This document shows, piece after piece, positions 6,969-27,813 of a stretch of DNA of 64,000 nt; the stretch's first letter is position 1; every line of letters begins with the position of its first letter. The DNA is taken from contig NZ_JAHUZF010000003.1 of assembly GCF_019218295.1 (NCBI RefSeq), forward strand, positions 62,001 to 126,000, read 5' to 3'. The notes under the pieces were generated by a model that saw nothing but the letters and a program-made list of their open reading frames with translations, had not been told where the DNA came from and ran no database searches. Both the position numbers and the translations under genes were made by a program. The DNA comes from Maritimibacter sp. DP1N21-5. GTDB taxonomy: Bacteria > Pseudomonadota > Alphaproteobacteria > Rhodobacterales > Rhodobacteraceae.

Positions 6969-7916
6969 ATGCTCGATATCCTTCTTGTGGCCGTCGGCCT
7001 GATCGGCCTTCTGATCGGCGGCGAATTTCTTGTGCGTGGTTCGGTCGCGGTGGCCCGTGCGGCAGGTTTGTCGCCAATGGTGATCGGTCTGACACTTGTC
7101 GGCTTCGGGACCTCCGCGCCCGAGCTTGTCACGTCGCTTCAAGCTGCCGCCATCGGGTCGCCCGGCATCGCCGTGGGGAACGTCGTCGGCTCGAATATCG
7201 GGAACATCCTGCTCATTCTGGGCATCGCGGCCTCGATGGGGGTGATCGTGGTGGATCGCGGAGCCTTCGCGCGTGACGGTCTCGTCCTCGCCATCGCCTC
7301 GCTCGCGGCCCTCGCGGTTGTGCTTTCTGGCGCCATGAGCCGCCCGGCTGGGGCCGTGCTCTTCGCGCTCCTTCTCAGCTATCTGGCCTTCACGCTGATC
7401 TCCGAGCGTCGTCGTCCGCAGGCGATGGACGTCTACGAAGCCGAAGCCGACCTTCCAGCGCCGATGGCCACCTTTCCCGCCATCCTCACCACCATCGCGG
7501 GTCTTGCAGGCACGATCCTCGCCGCCAAGGCGCTGGTCACCGGGAGCGTCGGGCTTGCACAACTGGCGGGCCTCTCGGAAACGCTGATCGGCCTGACCAT
7601 CGTCGCCATCGGCACCTCCATGCCCGAACTCGTCACCAGCGTCATCGCCATGCGCAAGGGCGAGGGTGACGTGGCCTTCGGCAACGTGGTCGGGTCGAAC
7701 ATCTTCAACATCCTGGGCATCCTCGGTATCACCGCACTGATCAGCCCGCTCGCCGTTCCGCCCGAGATCGCGCGCTTCGATATCTGGGTGATGCTCGCGG
7801 CCACCTCCGCCCTGATCGTCGCGGCTGTGTCAGGCTGGCGGATCACGCGGGGGGAGGGGGCCGTGCTCCTTCTGGGCTATCTTGTCTATCTCGGCGTTCT
7901 GATCGCCGGCGCCTGA
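6969..7916 (+). CDS. Calcium/sodium antiporter, CaCA family (YrbG-like)
   Basis: A 315-residue inner-membrane cation/Ca2+ exchanger with about ten helices and both alpha-repeats intact. Repeat 1 contains [10 protein letters not shown] and [13 protein letters not shown]; repeat 2 contains [10 protein letters not shown] and [13 protein letters not shown]. The paired Glu and Asn residues of these repeats form the ion site in structurally known family members. I chose the ATG at 6969 because the longer frame adds 15 arginine-rich residues ahead of the first helix. A second, divergent CaCA gene follows 36 bases later on the same strand. Confidence 0.92.
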
Positions 7917-22657: not shown

Positions 22658-24421
22658 TTATGCGCGGGCGACGATGGGGTGAGTGTGATCCGACGGCACG
22701 ATCTCGTCGTCGAAGGCCTGGATCGGGAACTCGATCTGAACGTGGTATTCCCCGTCCTCTTCGAGCCGCGTGACCTTGGCTTCCATCTGGCTTGCAAACG
22801 CGCGCACGAGCTGTTCGCCAAGCCCGGTGCTTTCCTCGCCCGCGCCCTCGCCGAAGGGGGTGCCGAGGGTGTTGCACACGGTCACGACACCCTTGTCGCC
22901 GCCCGCCTCGCAGGCCAGCCGAACGGTCAGCCGCGGCGGGCCGCCGGTCTCGGGGCGGCCGAGATGCTTCAGGGCGTTGGTCACGAGCTCGGACACGGCG
23001 AGAGACAGAGGCACGGCCTGATCCGGGTAGACCACGCATTCGTCGAAGTGGAACTCGGTCTCGATGCTTTCGTCGCCCGTCGTCGCGGAAGCGAGGATCT
23101 GGTGCACGATGGCGTCGAGCAACTCGTTGGCGCGAACCCGTTCTGCGGTCGATGTCTCGTAAAGGTTCTGGTGCACGCGGGCGATAGACATGACCCGCTG
23201 CTGGATGTCGGCGAGCGCGTTCTTGATCGTGGGCGAGTTCGACTTGCGCATCTTCATGCCCACGATGGACACGATGAGCTGCAGGTTGTTCTTCACCCGG
23301 TGATGGACCTCCTTCAACAGGACGGTGCGCTGGTGGATCGTGTCGTAAAGCTCCGCCTCGTCATGGAGGATGTTCTCGGCCAGACGCATCCAGGTTTCTT
23401 CCATGTCCCGGATTTCGGCGGGCACGGTCGGATCGGCCTTGGGCTCGACCAGCTTGCGCGACCGCATGAAGGCGAGCATCCGTGCGCGAAGGTTACGGGT
23501 CGGTTTGATGACCATGCGCTGCACGGCGTAGAAGGCGACGACGAGGCTGACGATCCACATGATGAGCGGGAACACCATCGAGGTGCCCCAGCTGACGCCG
23601 CCGATCGTGGCGCCTGACCGATACTCCCAGGAGCCGAGGGCAAAAACCTGCCCGGGGACGATGGGCACGACAGCGAACAGGCGTGGCTCGCCCGAGGCGG
23701 TTTCGCCGGCGAATGTCACTTCGTCCGTGCCGGCCAGCGCCGCCAACGCACGATTCAGCGGGATATGCTGCTCTACGTCGTCCATGCCTGAAGACGCCGT
23801 CAGCACGTCGCCCTCGGCGTTGAAGGTGATGAGCTCGAGGGGGCGACCTTCGGTCGCCGTGTCGTCGATGGGTGTCAGTTTGCGGTGCGGGATGGAGGCG
23901 CTGACGTAGCCATCGTATTCCCCGTCGGTGATGACGGGAAGCGACACGATGATGACCGGAGTCTGGCTGATCGAGGGCGCGAGGTTGAACTTCACGCGCG
24001 GGCCGGGACGTTCGATGAACTCCTCGTGCAGGGGGCGGCCAGTCAGGTCGTTGCCCTGCCCGCCGGAGGCACAGGCCACGGTGCCATCGGCCTGGACATA
24101 GGCGATCAGGGACAATTCCGGCGTGTCGCGCAGGAGCGAGGCCAGGGGCCCCTCGCAGGGCCAGCCTTCTGCCCGCAGGACCGGAATGAGCGAGACCAGC
24201 GTCTTCGCGACGCCGGTGGCCGTGCGGATGGCAGCCTCCGGCTCGGCGGCCGCATCCGACGTCAGCGCCAGAAGCGTGTCGGCAAGGTCCTCTTCGGTCC
24301 TGTTGAGGAGCTGATAGGTCGTGGCGACGGAGATCAGGCCGACCGGCAGGAGCGCAAGCGCCAGCAGGGCCGCAATCCGGAAGGTGAGGGTTCTACTCCG
24401 CTCGCGAAGCGTTGTAATCAA
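22658..24421 (-). CDS. Membrane sensor histidine kinase (HisKA_2) of the general stress locus
   Basis: A 587-residue kinase with a helix at about residues 15-35, a periplasmic sensor region, a second helix near 275-300 with HAMP-like linker, then HisKA_2 and HATPase. His373 in EVHHRVKNNLQLI is the expected phosphoacceptor; SLAVSELVTNALKHL is the N box. This class phosphorylates PhyR in several alphaproteobacteria (PhyK-type), which is likely here from position. It starts with TTG overlapping the ecfG stop (TTGA), so it should be co-translated with the sigma factor. No ATG lies near enough to the first helix to compete. Confidence 0.88.
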   Translation of the reverse strand: MITTLRERSRTLTFRIAALLALALLPVGLISVATTYQLLNRTEEDLADTLLALTSDAAAEPEAAIRTATGVAKTLVSLIPVLRAEGWPCEGPLASLLRDTPELSLIAYVQADGTVACASGGQGNDLTGRPLHEEFIERPGPRVKFNLAPSISQTPVIIVSLPVITDGEYDGYVSASIPHRKLTPIDDTATEGRPLELITFNAEGDVLTASSGMDDVEQHIPLNRALAALAGTDEVTFAGETASGEPRLFAVVPIVPGQVFALGSWEYRSGATIGGVSWGTSMVFPLIMWIVSLVVAFYAVQRMVIKPTRNLRARMLAFMRSRKLVEPKADPTVPAEIRDMEETWMRLAENILHDEAELYDTIHQRTVLLKEVHHRVKNNLQLIVSIVGMKMRKSNSPTIKNALADIQQRVMSIARVHQNLYETSTAERVRANELLDAIVHQILASATTGDESIETEFHFDECVVYPDQAVPLSLAVSELVTNALKHLGRPETGGPPRLTVRLACEAGGDKGVVTVCNTLGTPFGEGAGEESTGLGEQLVRAFASQMEAKVTRLEEDGEYHVQIEFPIQAFDDEIVPSDHTHPIVARA

Positions 24422-24996
24422 GTGCCGGATTTCCTCACCTGAAGACCCGCATTGATCACGGCCATGGTGGCCCGATCCGTGATCTCGATTCCATCTTCGT
24501 CGCCCAGTTCCAGCAACTCGGCCAGACGCGACCGACCCCGGTTGATGCGGCTCTTGATCGTGCCGATGGCCACGCCGCAGGTTTCGGCGGCTTCCTCATA
24601 GGACATGCCGGAGGCGCCAACAAGGATCAGCGCTTCGCGCTGTTCGACGGGCAGTTCGGAGAAGACCTTCTCGAAATCGGCGAAGGCCAATCGACCGTCG
24701 TGCGCCGGTTTTTCGGAAAGCGTCCCGGCCATCACGCCATCGACATCCTCCACCTCGCGGCGTTTCTTGCGCAGGTCGGAATAGAAGGTGTTGCGAAGAA
24801 TGGTGAAAAGCCAAGCCCGCAGGTTGGTTCCGGGCTTGAACTTGTCGAAGTTCTTCCACGCCTTCACGATGGTGTCCTGCACCAGATCGTCGGCGGCGGC
24901 GGAATTGCGCGTCAGGCTCGCGGCAAAGGCACGCATGGCGGGCAGATGCTCTACCACAGCCTCTCGGGGATCGTCGAACGCCTTGTCATTTGCCAT
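24418..24996 (-). CDS. ecfG: General stress response sigma factor EcfG (ECF15)
   Basis: A 192-residue ECF sigma factor. Region 2 includes DDLVQDTIVKAWKNFDKF and LRAWLFTILRNTFYSD; region 4 includes LPVEQREALILVGASGMSYE and VAIGTIKSRINRGR. It directs RNA polymerase to GGAAC/CGTT promoters, several of which are visible in this window. NepR holds it inactive until phosphorylated PhyR takes NepR away. The ATG at 24996 overlaps the nepR end by 11 bases; an ATG at 25014 is possible. Gene order nepR-ecfG-kinase, divergent from phyR, is diagnostic. Confidence 0.95.
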   Translation of the reverse strand: MANDKAFDDPREAVVEHLPAMRAFAASLTRNSAAADDLVQDTIVKAWKNFDKFKPGTNLRAWLFTILRNTFYSDLRKKRREVEDVDGVMAGTLSEKPAHDGRLAFADFEKVFSELPVEQREALILVGASGMSYEEAAETCGVAIGTIKSRINRGRSRLAELLELGDEDGIEITDRATMAVINAGLQVRKSGT

Positions 24997-25147
24997 GGGC
25001 CGAACCCCCGGCATCCTGCTCCTTCAACTTGGCGAGAAGGTCCAGAAACTTGTCCGGCACGTCTTCGTCCAACTTGCTTTGAAACACTTTCCGAAGGTTG
25101 TCGTCTATCTGCCTCTGCAGTCGATCGTCGTCTTTTTGCTTTGTCAT
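24986..25147 (-). CDS. nepR: Anti-sigma factor NepR
   Basis: A 53-residue protein with the NepR core: helix 1 RQIDDNLRKVFQ, linker LDEDVPDKF, helix 2 LDLLAKLKEQ. It binds EcfG and, during stress, PhyR. A longer frame starts at 25222, but that ATG lies inside the nepR promoter's -10 to -35 region, upstream of the expected transcript start near 25208. The ATG at 25147 is therefore the real start. It overlaps ecfG by 11 bases. Confidence 0.93.
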   Translation of the reverse strand: MTKQKDDDRLQRQIDDNLRKVFQSKLDEDVPDKFLDLLAKLKEQDAGGSAHGK

Positions 25148-25207
25148 TCCCGGCTCGTCCCGTCCAATGTCTGGCCGATGGCTCGGCACATTTTTTTTGC
25201 GCAGTTT

Positions 25208-25232
25208 GGAACCTAACGCCATGGGCGACGTT
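25208..25232 (+). promoter_or_regulatory. EcfG-type promoter of phyR
   Basis: GGAAC at 25208-25212, 16 bases, CGTT at 25229-25232. The expected start is near 25240, about 35 bases before phyR. It is completely interleaved with the nepR promoter on the other strand. Confidence 0.88.
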
Positions 25233-25239
25233 CGGTTCC
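25215..25239 (-). promoter_or_regulatory. EcfG-type promoter of nepR-ecfG-kinase
   Basis: On the minus strand, GGAAC (25239-25235), 16 bases, CGTT (25218-25215). The expected start is near 25208, leaving a leader of about 60 bases before nepR. Autoregulation of ecfG through this site is expected. Confidence 0.88.
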
Positions 25240-25273
25240 CGTGAAGACCAAAAAAAGTAGGGGCCTTTCAGGG

Positions 25274-26092
25274 ATGGACGGAATGCCGGACAACGAACAA
25301 GAATACCTGTCGGTGAAGATCGCATCGCTCTTGCCGTATCTTCGCCGCTATGCGCGTGCGCTGACGGGCAGTCAGACCACCGGAGATACATATGCTGCCG
25401 CCACGCTCGAGGCGCTGCTCGAAGACCGCTCGGTGTTCGAGATGGGGCTCGATCACAAGGTGGCGCTGTTTCGCGCCTTCAACCAGATCTGGACGAGCTC
25501 CGGCTCGCCCGTCGCGACCGAAGAAAACGGCATACGCGAGCGCGCTCAAACCCATCTGGCGCGGCTGACCACCAACACCCGCGAAGCGTTGCTTCTGCAC
25601 ACGGTCGAAGAGTTCAGCGTTTCCGATATCGCCGCGATCATGCAGGTCGACGAGGTCGAAGTGACCGAGCTGATCAAGATCGCGCGTCGCGAGATGGAAG
25701 ACAGCGTGAAGGGCCGGATCCTCATCATCGAGGACGAGGCGATCATCGCGATGGACCTCCAGGATATCGTGGCCGACATGGGCCATGCGATCACCGGAGT
25801 CGCCCGCACGGAACGCGGTGCCGTCGACTTGGCCGGCAAGGAAAAGCCCGACATGATCCTGTCGGACATCCAGCTTGCCGACGGATCCTCGGGGATCGAC
25901 GCCGTGAACGCGATCCTGAAGTCGGCGGGCGACGTGCCGGTCATCTTCATTACCGCTTTCCCGGAACGACTTTTGACCGGCGAACGCCCGGAACCGGCAT
26001 TCGTGATCACCAAGCCCTATTCCGAGGACCAGGTGCGCTCGGCCGTGAGCCAGGCGATGTTCTTCTCTTCAACGGAAACGCTGGAGATCTAA
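25274..26092 (+). CDS. phyR: Response regulator PhyR, anti-anti-sigma factor
   Basis: A 272-residue regulator with an N-terminal sigma-like domain (residues 1-135; LLPYLRRYARALTGSQ, TREALLLHTVEEFSVSDIA). The C-terminal receiver domain (residues 148-265) has acidic pocket IIEDEA, phosphorylation site Asp198 (ILSDIQLADG) and switch Lys in ITKPYSE. When phosphorylated, the sigma-like domain sequesters NepR and frees EcfG. A GTG frame starting at 25241 would lie at the transcript start, so I use 25274; the ATG at 25283 is also possible. A terminator follows. Confidence 0.96.
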   Translation: MDGMPDNEQEYLSVKIASLLPYLRRYARALTGSQTTGDTYAAATLEALLEDRSVFEMGLDHKVALFRAFNQIWTSSGSPVATEENGIRERAQTHLARLTTNTREALLLHTVEEFSVSDIAAIMQVDEVEVTELIKIARREMEDSVKGRILIIEDEAIIAMDLQDIVADMGHAITGVARTERGAVDLAGKEKPDMILSDIQLADGSSGIDAVNAILKSAGDVPVIFITAFPERLLTGERPEPAFVITKPYSEDQVRSAVSQAMFFSSTETLEI

Positions 26093-26124
26093 CTCTTCGA
26101 TCTAAGGTGCACGATCGAAAGAAG

Positions 26125-26150
26125 CGCGGGGCCATCGGTCCCGCGTTTTC
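26125..26150 (+). terminator. Terminator after phyR
   Basis: CGCGGGGCC pairs with GGTCCCGCG around loop ATC, followed by TTTTC. It is 32 bases after the phyR stop. Confidence 0.85.
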
Positions 26151-26172
26151 TTGTGCGCTGACCGCAGACACG

Positions 26173-26207
26173 AAAAAGGGGCGCCCGAGGTACATTCGGC
26201 GCCCCTT
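26173..26207 (-). terminator. Terminator after the DUF1328 gene
   Basis: On the minus strand, AAGGGGCGCC pairs with GGGCGCCCCTT across an 11-base loop, followed by TTTTTCG. It is placed 25 bases past the stop. Confidence 0.88.
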
Positions 26208-26231
26208 AACTCATTCTCTTTGAGCGTCTCG

Positions 26232-26402
26232 TCAGATGTTACGGCCACGAACGGCCCGTGCCACGAGGGTGACCACGAAGAGCACCAGGAACACGAAGAA
26301 CAGGATCTGCGCGATGCCGGCCGAAGCCGATGCGATGCCGCCGAAGCCGAACAGCGCCGCGACAAGCGCGATGACGAGGAATGTAAGAGCCCAACCAAGC
26401 AT
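26232..26402 (-). CDS. DUF1328 (YtjA-like) small membrane protein
   Basis: A 56-residue protein of two hydrophobic helices ([19 protein letters not shown] and [19 protein letters not shown]) and a basic tail (ARAVRGRNI). This is the DUF1328/YtjA family, small inner-membrane proteins often induced by stress. The ATG at 26402 follows a GAAGGAG site and gives the family length. Upstream on the minus strand is GGAAC, 16 bases, CGGTT: a one-base-off EcfG promoter (26482 to 26457) that may put it in the stress regulon. Confidence 0.9.
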
Positions 26403-26506
26403 GGGTATTCTCCTTCGATTTGCGATGTGCCGCACGGGCACGGTGATTGAGAAGAAAACCGCCTGCGGCATGGAAATGTTCCGCCAAAAAGAATCTCGGG
26501 CGCTTC

Positions 26507-26532
26507 GGAACAGCCGCGCGGGGGATTGCGTT
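26507..26532 (+). promoter_or_regulatory. EcfG-type promoter of the DUF883-holin pair
   Basis: GGAAC at 26507-26511, 17 bases, CGTT at 26529-26532, an exact match. The expected start is near 26539, 30 bases before the ATG at 26569. Confidence 0.88.
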
Positions 26533-26568
26533 TATGGCCAAAGGACAGACACCTTAAGGAGTTTCTAC

Positions 26569-26907
26569 ATGGCAACCGCCACCCAAACTGCGAAGCCCTC
26601 GAACGGCATGGACAAGAGCGTCAAGGAGCTCGAGGCCCAGATCGCCGCGTTGAAATCGGATGTTTCGGAGCTGACCGCCACCCTTGGAAAACTTGGCCGC
26701 GAGGCCGGAACTGAAGCCCGTGCGCGTGCGTCGAAAGCCGCCAACACGGCCAAGGAGAGCGCCTATTCGACGGCCCACGCAGCCGGCGCACAGGCCCGTG
26801 AGTATTACGGACAGGCCGAAGCGCAGGTGCGCGAGAATCCCGCTGCGGCCGTCGGCATCGCAGCCGGCGTCGGATTCCTCGCCGGTCTCCTTTTCGCGCG
26901 GAAGTAA
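26569..26907 (+). CDS. DUF883-family (ElaB/YqjD-like) membrane-anchored protein
   Basis: A 112-residue protein with an amphipathic helical body (VKELEAQIAALKSDVSELTA, coiled-coil-like) and an alanine-rich stretch. A C-terminal helix (AAVGIAAGVGFLAGLLFARK) ends in the RENPAAAVGIAAG signature of ElaB/YqjD proteins. In Escherichia coli such proteins tether stationary-phase ribosomes to the membrane; the role here is inferred from family only. An exact EcfG promoter drives it. A holin-like gene starts about four bases past its stop. Confidence 0.9.
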   Translation: MATATQTAKPSNGMDKSVKELEAQIAALKSDVSELTATLGKLGREAGTEARARASKAANTAKESAYSTAHAAGAQAREYYGQAEAQVRENPAAAVGIAAGVGFLAGLLFARK

Positions 26908-26911
26908 GCCG

Positions 26912-27295
26912 TTGTTGTTCGGCGCGATCGAAATGAAGGCTCGTCTGGCTGCACGCAGAGCCGCGTTCAGCCTGGCGGGCGCTTTGCTGTTGATGGTGGG
27001 GCTCGCGTTCCTGACGGTAGCGGCCTGGATCGGCTTGGTTCAGGCGACCGATACGCTGACGGCCGCTCTGGTCATTGGCGGGGCCTATACCGGCCTCGCA
27101 CTCATCGCATTCGCCTTTGCGATCCGGCGGCCCCGCGTGCCGATGCGCGATCCCTACGTCGCCGCTGCGATGGCGACGCCGCCCCGTCACAAGAGCGGGC
27201 TGGAGGAAGCGGGCGGAATCGCTGCGGCCTTCATGTCCGGGCTGAACGCGGGTTCGGCGGCACGCAACGGCTTTCACCGTGGGCGGGAGCACTGA
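26912..27295 (+). CDS. Phage holin family (Holin-X-like) membrane protein
   Basis: A 127-residue protein with two long hydrophobic helices (LAGALLLMVGLAFLTVAAWI and LTAALVIGGAYTGLALIAFA). A soluble tail contains a glycine-rich amphipathic segment (GGIAAAFMSGLNAG). Such proteins commonly follow ElaB/YqjD-type genes, forming the same pair as YqjD-YqjE in enterobacteria; no phage origin is implied. The start is uncertain: TTG at 26912 has a GGAAG site seven bases upstream, while the first ATG is 26933. It shares the upstream EcfG promoter. Confidence 0.75.
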   Translation: MLFGAIEMKARLAARRAAFSLAGALLLMVGLAFLTVAAWIGLVQATDTLTAALVIGGAYTGLALIAFAFAIRRPRVPMRDPYVAAAMATPPRHKSGLEEAGGIAAAFMSGLNAGSAARNGFHRGREH

Positions 27296-27333
27296 TCCAA
27301 CTGGATCGTGCCGCCCGCGGCCAGAACCTATCC

Positions 27334-27813
27334 TCAATGCTTGTGGTGCTTGAGATCGCCGTGGTGCAGAACCGGTGCCGCGTCGATATCCCTTGCGTCG
27401 AGCATCGCCGCCACGCGTTCGAGCGCGGCGATGATCTGCGCCTGCTCCCAGTCTTCCAGGGCCTCGAACTTGCGCACATACCGCTGTTGAAGCGCGTCCG
27501 GCGCCTCGTCGAGCACCGCTTGCCCGGCGGCCGTGACCGTGACGTTCGTCTGCCGCCGGTCACGTTGGGACTGCTCGCGGGACACGAGCGCCTTCGCGAC
27601 GAGCTTGTCGACGAGTGTCGTGATCGTCGCCTGGCTCACCCCCATGCGCGCGGCAATGGCCGAAGGGGTCGCAGAGCCCGCTTCCCCGGCAATCTGGAGC
27701 ACACGCAACTGCGGCGCGGAAAGACCCGCCGCCTGGGCAAGCTCTTTCCCGTAAAGCTCGGTCGCGCGCAGGATACGGCGCAGCGCGATCAGACTGACAT
27801 CGGTCCGGTCCAT
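27334..27813 (-). CDS. ectR: MarR-family regulator EctR of ectoine synthesis
   Basis: A 159-residue winged-helix MarR protein: RILRATELYGKELAQAAG (dimer helix), then LSAPQLRVLQIAGEAG, the HTH ATPSAIAARMGVSQATIT, and wing REQSQRDRRQTNVTVT. The tail is histidine-rich (LHHGDLKHHKH). It is divergent from ectABC-ask, the position of EctR, which represses ect genes in methylotrophs and other halophiles. The ATG at 27813 follows AGAGGGG; starts at 27834 or 27867 would add up to 18 residues. An imperfect dyad between the genes is its likely operator. Confidence 0.88.
   Translation of the reverse strand: MDRTDVSLIALRRILRATELYGKELAQAAGLSAPQLRVLQIAGEAGSATPSAIAARMGVSQATITTLVDKLVAKALVSREQSQRDRRQTNVTVTAAGQAVLDEAPDALQQRYVRKFEALEDWEQAQIIAALERVAAMLDARDIDAAPVLHHGDLKHHKH

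Follow-up and report, generated by a model that had tools for sequence, protein, structure and literature searches.

Interleaved, opposed EcfG-type promoters between phyR and nepR in Maritimibacter: a probable bidirectional promoter conserved among Rhodobacterales

Divergent EcfG promoters between phyR and nepR-ecfG are known from alphaproteobacteria (PMC8103513, PMC4814048, PMC3892343; like the other papers cited here, represented by parts of their text), as the preliminary description of this DNA had already said. The published systems resemble the present locus in genes, layout, motif and positive autoregulation. The class rule is that both units are driven by EcfG (PMC8103513, PMC4814048), and a spacer of either 16 or 17 is accepted in EcfG promoters (PMC4814048). 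However, those parts of the published accounts describe two promoters and do not mention that they interleave. The other close parallel is provided by the bidirectional sigma-70 promoters of E. coli and Salmonella (Warman, Grainger), which also consist of pseudo-symmetric DNA used in exclusive orientations and often lie between divergent genes (PMC12825309, PMC10268837). Sigma-70 promoters of this type have a common or overlapping -10 element, and their starts are 7-25 bp apart, most often 18.

The locus compared here with these systems lies in a window of 64,000 nucleotides, the whole stretch of DNA analysed. The genes on either side of the site are as follows.

22658..24421, minus strand: HisKA_2/HWE histidine kinase (Pfam), last gene of the likely minus-strand operon
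24418..25014, minus strand: ecfG, general stress response ECF sigma factor (Pfam Sigma70_r2, Sigma70_r4_2)
24989..25147, minus strand: nepR, anti-sigma factor (Pfam NepR, 54.3 bits with a cut-off of 25.7), likely start ATG 25147
25274..26092, plus strand: phyR, anti-anti-sigma response regulator (Pfam PhyR_sigma2, PhyR_sigma-like, Response_reg), start ATG 25274 or 25283

Pfam matches and coordinates identified the divergent phyR and nepR-ecfG units expected around an EcfG promoter pair, and the same neighbours recurred in relatives. The open frames of nepR, ecfG and the kinase overlap on a single strand, so the three genes most likely share the minus transcript. For RSP_1273-1272 of R. sphaeroides, dRNA-seq points to co-transcription (PMC5830050). 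Both points bear on the earlier proposal that a positive loop (ecfG, phyR) competes with a negative loop (nepR) for the DNA. One site with two orientations would suit such a contest, but gene order disagrees with it, the sigma factor and its anti-sigma factor being encoded on the same side, and the R. sphaeroides co-transcription also argues against it. We therefore regard a contest between the two loops as very improbable, and the best reading is a competition of phyR with the whole nepR-ecfG-kinase operon.

The elements in the gap between phyR and nepR are listed below.

25191..25198: T8 tract, 10-17 nt outside the plus-strand -35, a putative upstream element for the phyR promoter
25208..25232, plus strand: EcfG-type promoter toward phyR; -35 GGAAC at 25208-25212, spacer 16, -10 CGTT at 25229-25232
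about 25239-25241, plus strand: phyR-side start, predicted from the -10
25215..25239, minus strand: EcfG-type promoter toward nepR-ecfG-kinase; -35 GGAAC at 25239-25235, spacer 16, -10 CGTT at 25218-25215
about 25206-25208, minus strand: nepR-side start, predicted
25250..25256: A7 tract, 11-17 nt outside the minus-strand -35, a putative upstream element for the nepR promoter

Coordinates and sequence of the exact GGAAC-N16-CGTT match on both strands within the 32 bp of 25208-25239 were confirmed as first described, and each strand thus carries a motif of the GGAAC-N16/17-CGTT type that defines an EcfG promoter pair at a general-stress-response locus. The two halves form an inverted repeat with arms GGAACCTAACG and CGTTCGGTTCC at 25208-25218 and 25229-25239, 91% complementary and separated by 10 nt, in which the opposite -35 box sits 2 bp outside each -10 box. 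A consensus scan of 25000-25400 found no housekeeping promoter in the gap. We rejected a role of the repeat as an RNA hairpin: it lies between the two predicted starts, so that neither mRNA should contain it, and 24000-27500 gave no Rfam match at the gathering threshold. On the plus strand, 25174-25198 has a terminator-like score, given by a small stem with the T8 tract after it; one such structure was found, with 0.4 expected from shuffles.

The preliminary description took the promoters to exclude two alternative gene starts, which goes too far for both. The phyR GTG at 25241 lies at the predicted transcript start, and could thus only serve a leaderless mRNA. The nearest relative, L031, has an ATG at the matching place, and four of the seven relatives read (L032, L036, L040, L041) have stops close upstream of phyR. 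The long nepR frame from 25222 is doubtful rather than excluded: the extension has no visible conservation in the seven relatives, and the 25 codons upstream of nepR contain stops in L031, L035 and L036 and none in L032, L034, L040 and L041.

To follow the pair in relatives, we examined the 80 best-matching loci among 540 confirmed relatives of PhyR, a sample from which records very near the window's genome are perhaps missing; the closest PhyR among the matches listed is from a Maritimibacter (92%). All of these best 80 loci are from Rhodobacterales (43 Roseobacteraceae and 37 Paracoccaceae by NCBI names); where we speak of the family, group f1 of the search set is meant. An opposed, overlapping pair scoring at least 7/9 on each strand was present at 79 of these best 80 of 540 loci, a positive answer to the preliminary description's question whether both element pairs and their overlap are conserved, and the pair was exact on both strands at 30 (L089 and L100 among them). 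nepR, ecfG and the kinase were each matched at 79 of the same best 80, a different locus being missed each time. The sole locus with no pair, L094 of Pseudaestuariivita rosea, has nepR and kinase matches and no adjoining ecfG, and a separate phyR-nepR-ecfG locus of the same genome has the pair (17/18).

Thirty further loci were drawn together with the genome's second PhyR. All scored at least 16/18, although some are shared with the 80; L239 has an odd geometry and L221 a 15-bp spacer. In the combined set the pair was found at 129 of 131 loci, or at 103 of 105 when the 26 rows chosen by pattern are left out (these rows are what is left of L183-L212 after removal of 2 duplicates and 2 short ones; across the whole set, 13 duplicates and 2 short rows were discarded before counting). 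One ecfG-linked locus, L116 (G252:C6), has only the minus site at 8/9 or better, and L144 of the same genome has the pair.

Single motifs and the paired form behave differently with respect to chance. Exact matches with spacers of 15-18 are only mildly enriched in the window (6 found, 2.48 expected; 6 reached in 5 of 100 shuffles). Genome-wide, 102 matches with spacers of 16-17 compare with 71 for the reversed control, indicating that many single matches elsewhere are due to chance. The window's remaining matches are these.

6529, 22654 (minus strand), 26507 and 32705 (minus strand): four matches outside the pair, each 37-54 nt before a gene, in promoter position

Two of the genes behind them encode CsbD and DUF883 proteins (Pfam); the frame at about 6608 we tentatively take to encode a membrane protein of the GlsB type, and that at about 32641 a protein resembling transglutaminases. 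With these four further exact EcfG-type sites before genes, the window resembles a stress-regulon gene cluster.

Across the 3.86-Mb genome the strict paired pattern had a single match, and 2 of 385 genomes of the class contained it, with no match of the reversed control in the rows listed. A match in G205 was not counted as a second case: a solitary response-regulator frame flanks it on one side, and on the other is the 3' end of the gene that follows on the same strand. When pairs were scored, 17/18 or better was reached upstream of phyR at 71 of the best 80 of 540 loci, in 5 of 2000 dinucleotide shuffles and, among control stretches, in 2 of 575; lowering the threshold to 15/18 gave 79 of the same best 80, 145 of 2000 and 44 of 575. 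The interleaved form is therefore neither a product of chance nor peculiar to this genome.

We also searched 295 genomes of group f1 without reference to genes, using the pattern GGAACN{1,3}AACGN{9,12}CGTTNNGTTCC. It matched in 63 genomes, at one site in each, and its reversed control in 1 of 295; the figure of 63 is a lower bound, since the pattern demands that both -10 boxes be exact. All 63 sites adjoin phyR (30 of 30 and 18 of 18 in two sets, and 15 by coordinates). The exceptions among neighbours were L208, with no nepR match, and L247, with nepR and no ecfG match. Although a centre of 9-12 bp was permitted, the lengths of the 63 sites listed show just 10 and 11.

An inverted repeat with near-symmetric arms (GGAACCTAACG and CGTTCGGTTCC) could instead be the binding site of a dimeric regulator, overlapped by one EcfG promoter at most. 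Such an operator would have a fixed half-site spacing and symmetric free positions, and the relatives bear directly on both properties. Half-site spacing varies: 127 of 129 loci (all but L221 and L239) combine a left gap of 1-3 with a centre of 10-11, and 119 have a right gap of 2. Whenever the left gap is 1 (35 loci) the centre is 11, and whenever it is 3 (14 loci) the centre is 10. At 128 of 129 loci each promoter spacer thus measures 16 or 17, with 15-18 permitted (102 of 103 without the pattern-chosen rows). Such compensating insertions, which keep both spacers at 16-17, fit two promoters and not a palindrome for a dimeric protein.

The spacers are equal in 81 of 129 loci and differ by one in 48. 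The complete overlap with equal spacing first described thus holds for this locus (N16 and N16) but fails as a general rule; frequent equality is expected, as an indel in the common centre alters both spacers together. On a quick FastTree tree of PhyR proteins we counted 38 geometry changes, and in the 7 supported independent pairs left gap and centre never shifted the same way, a weak sign test (median p 0.06, range 0.03-0.25; a second split gave 2 pairs). As to free positions, one pair is complementary above expectation (23 with 17.2 expected, of 48; 16 with 8.9 expected, of 27), which would suit a dimer, but the other free positions show no consistent excess, and on the 4 independent tree pairs available the single excess is unsupported. 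The base next to each -10 is the same in 53 of 128 loci (40.9 expected); covariation there was rejected, having no support on independent tree pairs. Moreover, other families have the same elements in the form of separate promoters. With varying spacing and one unexplained excess, we rejected the operator on the ground of spacer compensation and consider it very unlikely.

The boxes themselves address the alternative that just one strand has a working promoter and the mirror match is incidental. The -35 reads GGAAC in 129 of 129 loci on the plus strand and 128 of 129 on the minus strand, in a scan that required 4/5, so both -35 boxes are near invariant. The -10 is exactly CGTT in 105 of 129 on the plus strand and 77 of 129 on the minus strand (79 and 51 of 103 without the pattern-chosen rows): both are exact in 64 loci, plus only in 41, minus only in 13 and neither in 11. 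One side is hence less constrained, as a single promoter would have it, and L116, with its one site, points the same way. Against this, the two gene units point outward from the site, and in relatives both are EcfG-dependent according to published work (PMC3892343, PMC8103513, PMC4814048). Together with the near invariance of both -35 boxes, this makes a single working promoter very improbable.

The flanks of the pair carry mirror tracts. Outside the right-hand -35, relatives have A in 50-82% of cases at distances of 3-8 and of 12-17 nt and less often in between, and outside the left-hand -35 they have T at 42-62% at 12-17 nt. Runs of at least 4 on the right are of A in 109 of 128 loci and of T in 15, and on the left of T in 60 of 128 and of A in 32. 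Such tracts are absent from three of the window's four single sites; the fourth, before the DUF883 gene, has an A5 a little more distant (17-21 nt). The T8 and A7 tracts of the pair lie at corresponding distances, and their position fits upstream elements, presumably bound by the alpha subunit.

Outside the group, 63 loci with relatively strong PhyR matches were examined in other families of the class, several of them from the same genome or family. A pair was obtained at 22, no divergent ecfG was found at 28, and 13 had a divergent ecfG but no pair. Unlike the pair described here, the promoters at 10 of the 63 loci stand back to back, their -35 boxes separated by 6-8 bp (8 bp in eight, 7 bp in one, 6 bp in one). 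The exact 8-bp back-to-back geometry was seen in several other alphaproteobacterial families (L117, L118, L136, L139, L146-L149). Wider arrangements were spacings of 28-41 bp in three cases, promoters far apart in two, and in one an offset of +106, without overlap. Interleaved pairs had an offset of +6 in four cases (groups f42 and f149) and of +2 in two. An offset of +2 (L156, L160, L161, L176) is a tighter overlap, in which one promoter's -10 overlaps the other's -35; L160 and L161 show it at a lower score (8/9 per strand) in one scan and a far pair in the 63-locus scan. The interleaved form is thus usual in this group and present in two other families.

In the window's own genome, a second, complete kinase-ecfG-nepR / phyR stress locus, L143 (G000:C6:186000-198000), has an interleaved pair at locus positions 7248-7280, in which both -10 boxes read CGTA instead of CGTT. 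These CGTA boxes could reflect a separate specificity of the second sigma factor. We make no claim of a concerted change to CGTA, which affects both strands in L143 only and the plus strand alone in L214, L215 and L217.

The strongest alternative accepts both promoters as real and used, and regards their overlap as a by-product of compaction or ancestry, at an occupancy too low for interference. Once interleaved, neither promoter can drift, and this could alone explain conservation. In the tested E. coli bidirectional promoters, basal activity was too low for competition; the sigma-70 promoters showed no interference at basal activity but did interfere when strongly activated (NAR 2026; PMC12825309). 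Autoregulated stress promoters, however, would be expected to be strongly active when induced. The close geometries of other families (8 bp in eight, +6 in four and +2 in two of the 63 loci) further hint that closeness itself is held, although no pair could be assessed at 41 of the 63 and some families contribute several loci. We regard a by-product as a serious possibility, though not the probable one.

Our preferred reading is that 25191-25256 forms a pseudo-symmetric bidirectional EcfG promoter with two exclusive polymerase orientations, which we consider quite probable. That one polymerase could not use both opposed promoters at once, as the preliminary description proposed, appears well supported by the comparison of sequences. 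EcfG holoenzyme would bind one at a time, one orientation yielding phyR mRNA and the opposite one nepR-ecfG-kinase mRNA. Since either -10 is located 2 bp inward of the -35 on the other strand, melting for one start would disrupt the -35 of the other, and binding should be mutually exclusive on this geometry. As the same sigma factor would read both, both units are expected to rise together under stress. At high occupancy the single common site would make the output ratio depend on the strengths of the two orientations and not on the free EcfG level; simple algebra suggests that an exclusive site would keep its output ratio at that of the two binding weights whatever the sigma level, while the outputs of two separate sites would converge on saturation. 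The ratio of PhyR to NepR/EcfG synthesis would thereby be kept steady and the total capped. The sequences establish the two sites, their conservation, the compensating spacers and, within the gene-blind scan, the restriction of the pair to this locus; use of both sites in the cell, exclusion and the ratio function are what we infer from this arrangement.

Published expression data from R. sphaeroides qualify such a lock. There phyR mRNA increases 2-3 fold with singlet oxygen, superoxide and diamide and not with membrane stress, and ecfG mRNA increases only with membrane stress (PMC5830050). As the two units respond to different stresses, either further inputs act in that species or the ratio is not locked. 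For the wider group we offer a doubtful extension: in the Rhodobacterales of this group, the partner switch of the general stress response might be fed by one symmetric, exclusive ECF-sigma promoter with mirror tracts, kept for a synthesis ratio of anti-anti-sigma to sigma plus anti-sigma that stays fixed whatever the degree of activation, and other alphaproteobacterial lineages might achieve exclusion by other fixed geometries (8 bp back to back, offset +2).

Taken together, divergent EcfG promoters and bidirectional sigma-70 promoters were already known, and we found no report of conserved interleaving of EcfG promoters among the open-access papers covered by our search. Unlike the sigma-70 type, the site described here belongs to an ECF sigma factor, has interleaved -35/-10 pairs and predicted starts about 32 bp apart. 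It falls outside the definition of Warman (divergent starts 7-25 bp apart, with -10s and start positions that overlap reciprocally; PMC10268837), since the predicted distance is ~32 bp and the -10s do not overlap. Despite the start distance, two polymerases may be unable to bind together, and the site may work like a bidirectional promoter of the Warman type. If so, a single site that the circuit's own sigma factor reads in either of two exclusive orientations would be a simple physical means to keep the parts of a stress switch in proportion. Bidirectional sigma-70 promoters have been associated with reduced noise (NAR 2026; PMC12825309), and the present site would extend such promoters from sigma-70 to ECF sigma factors, in a form conserved across a large group.
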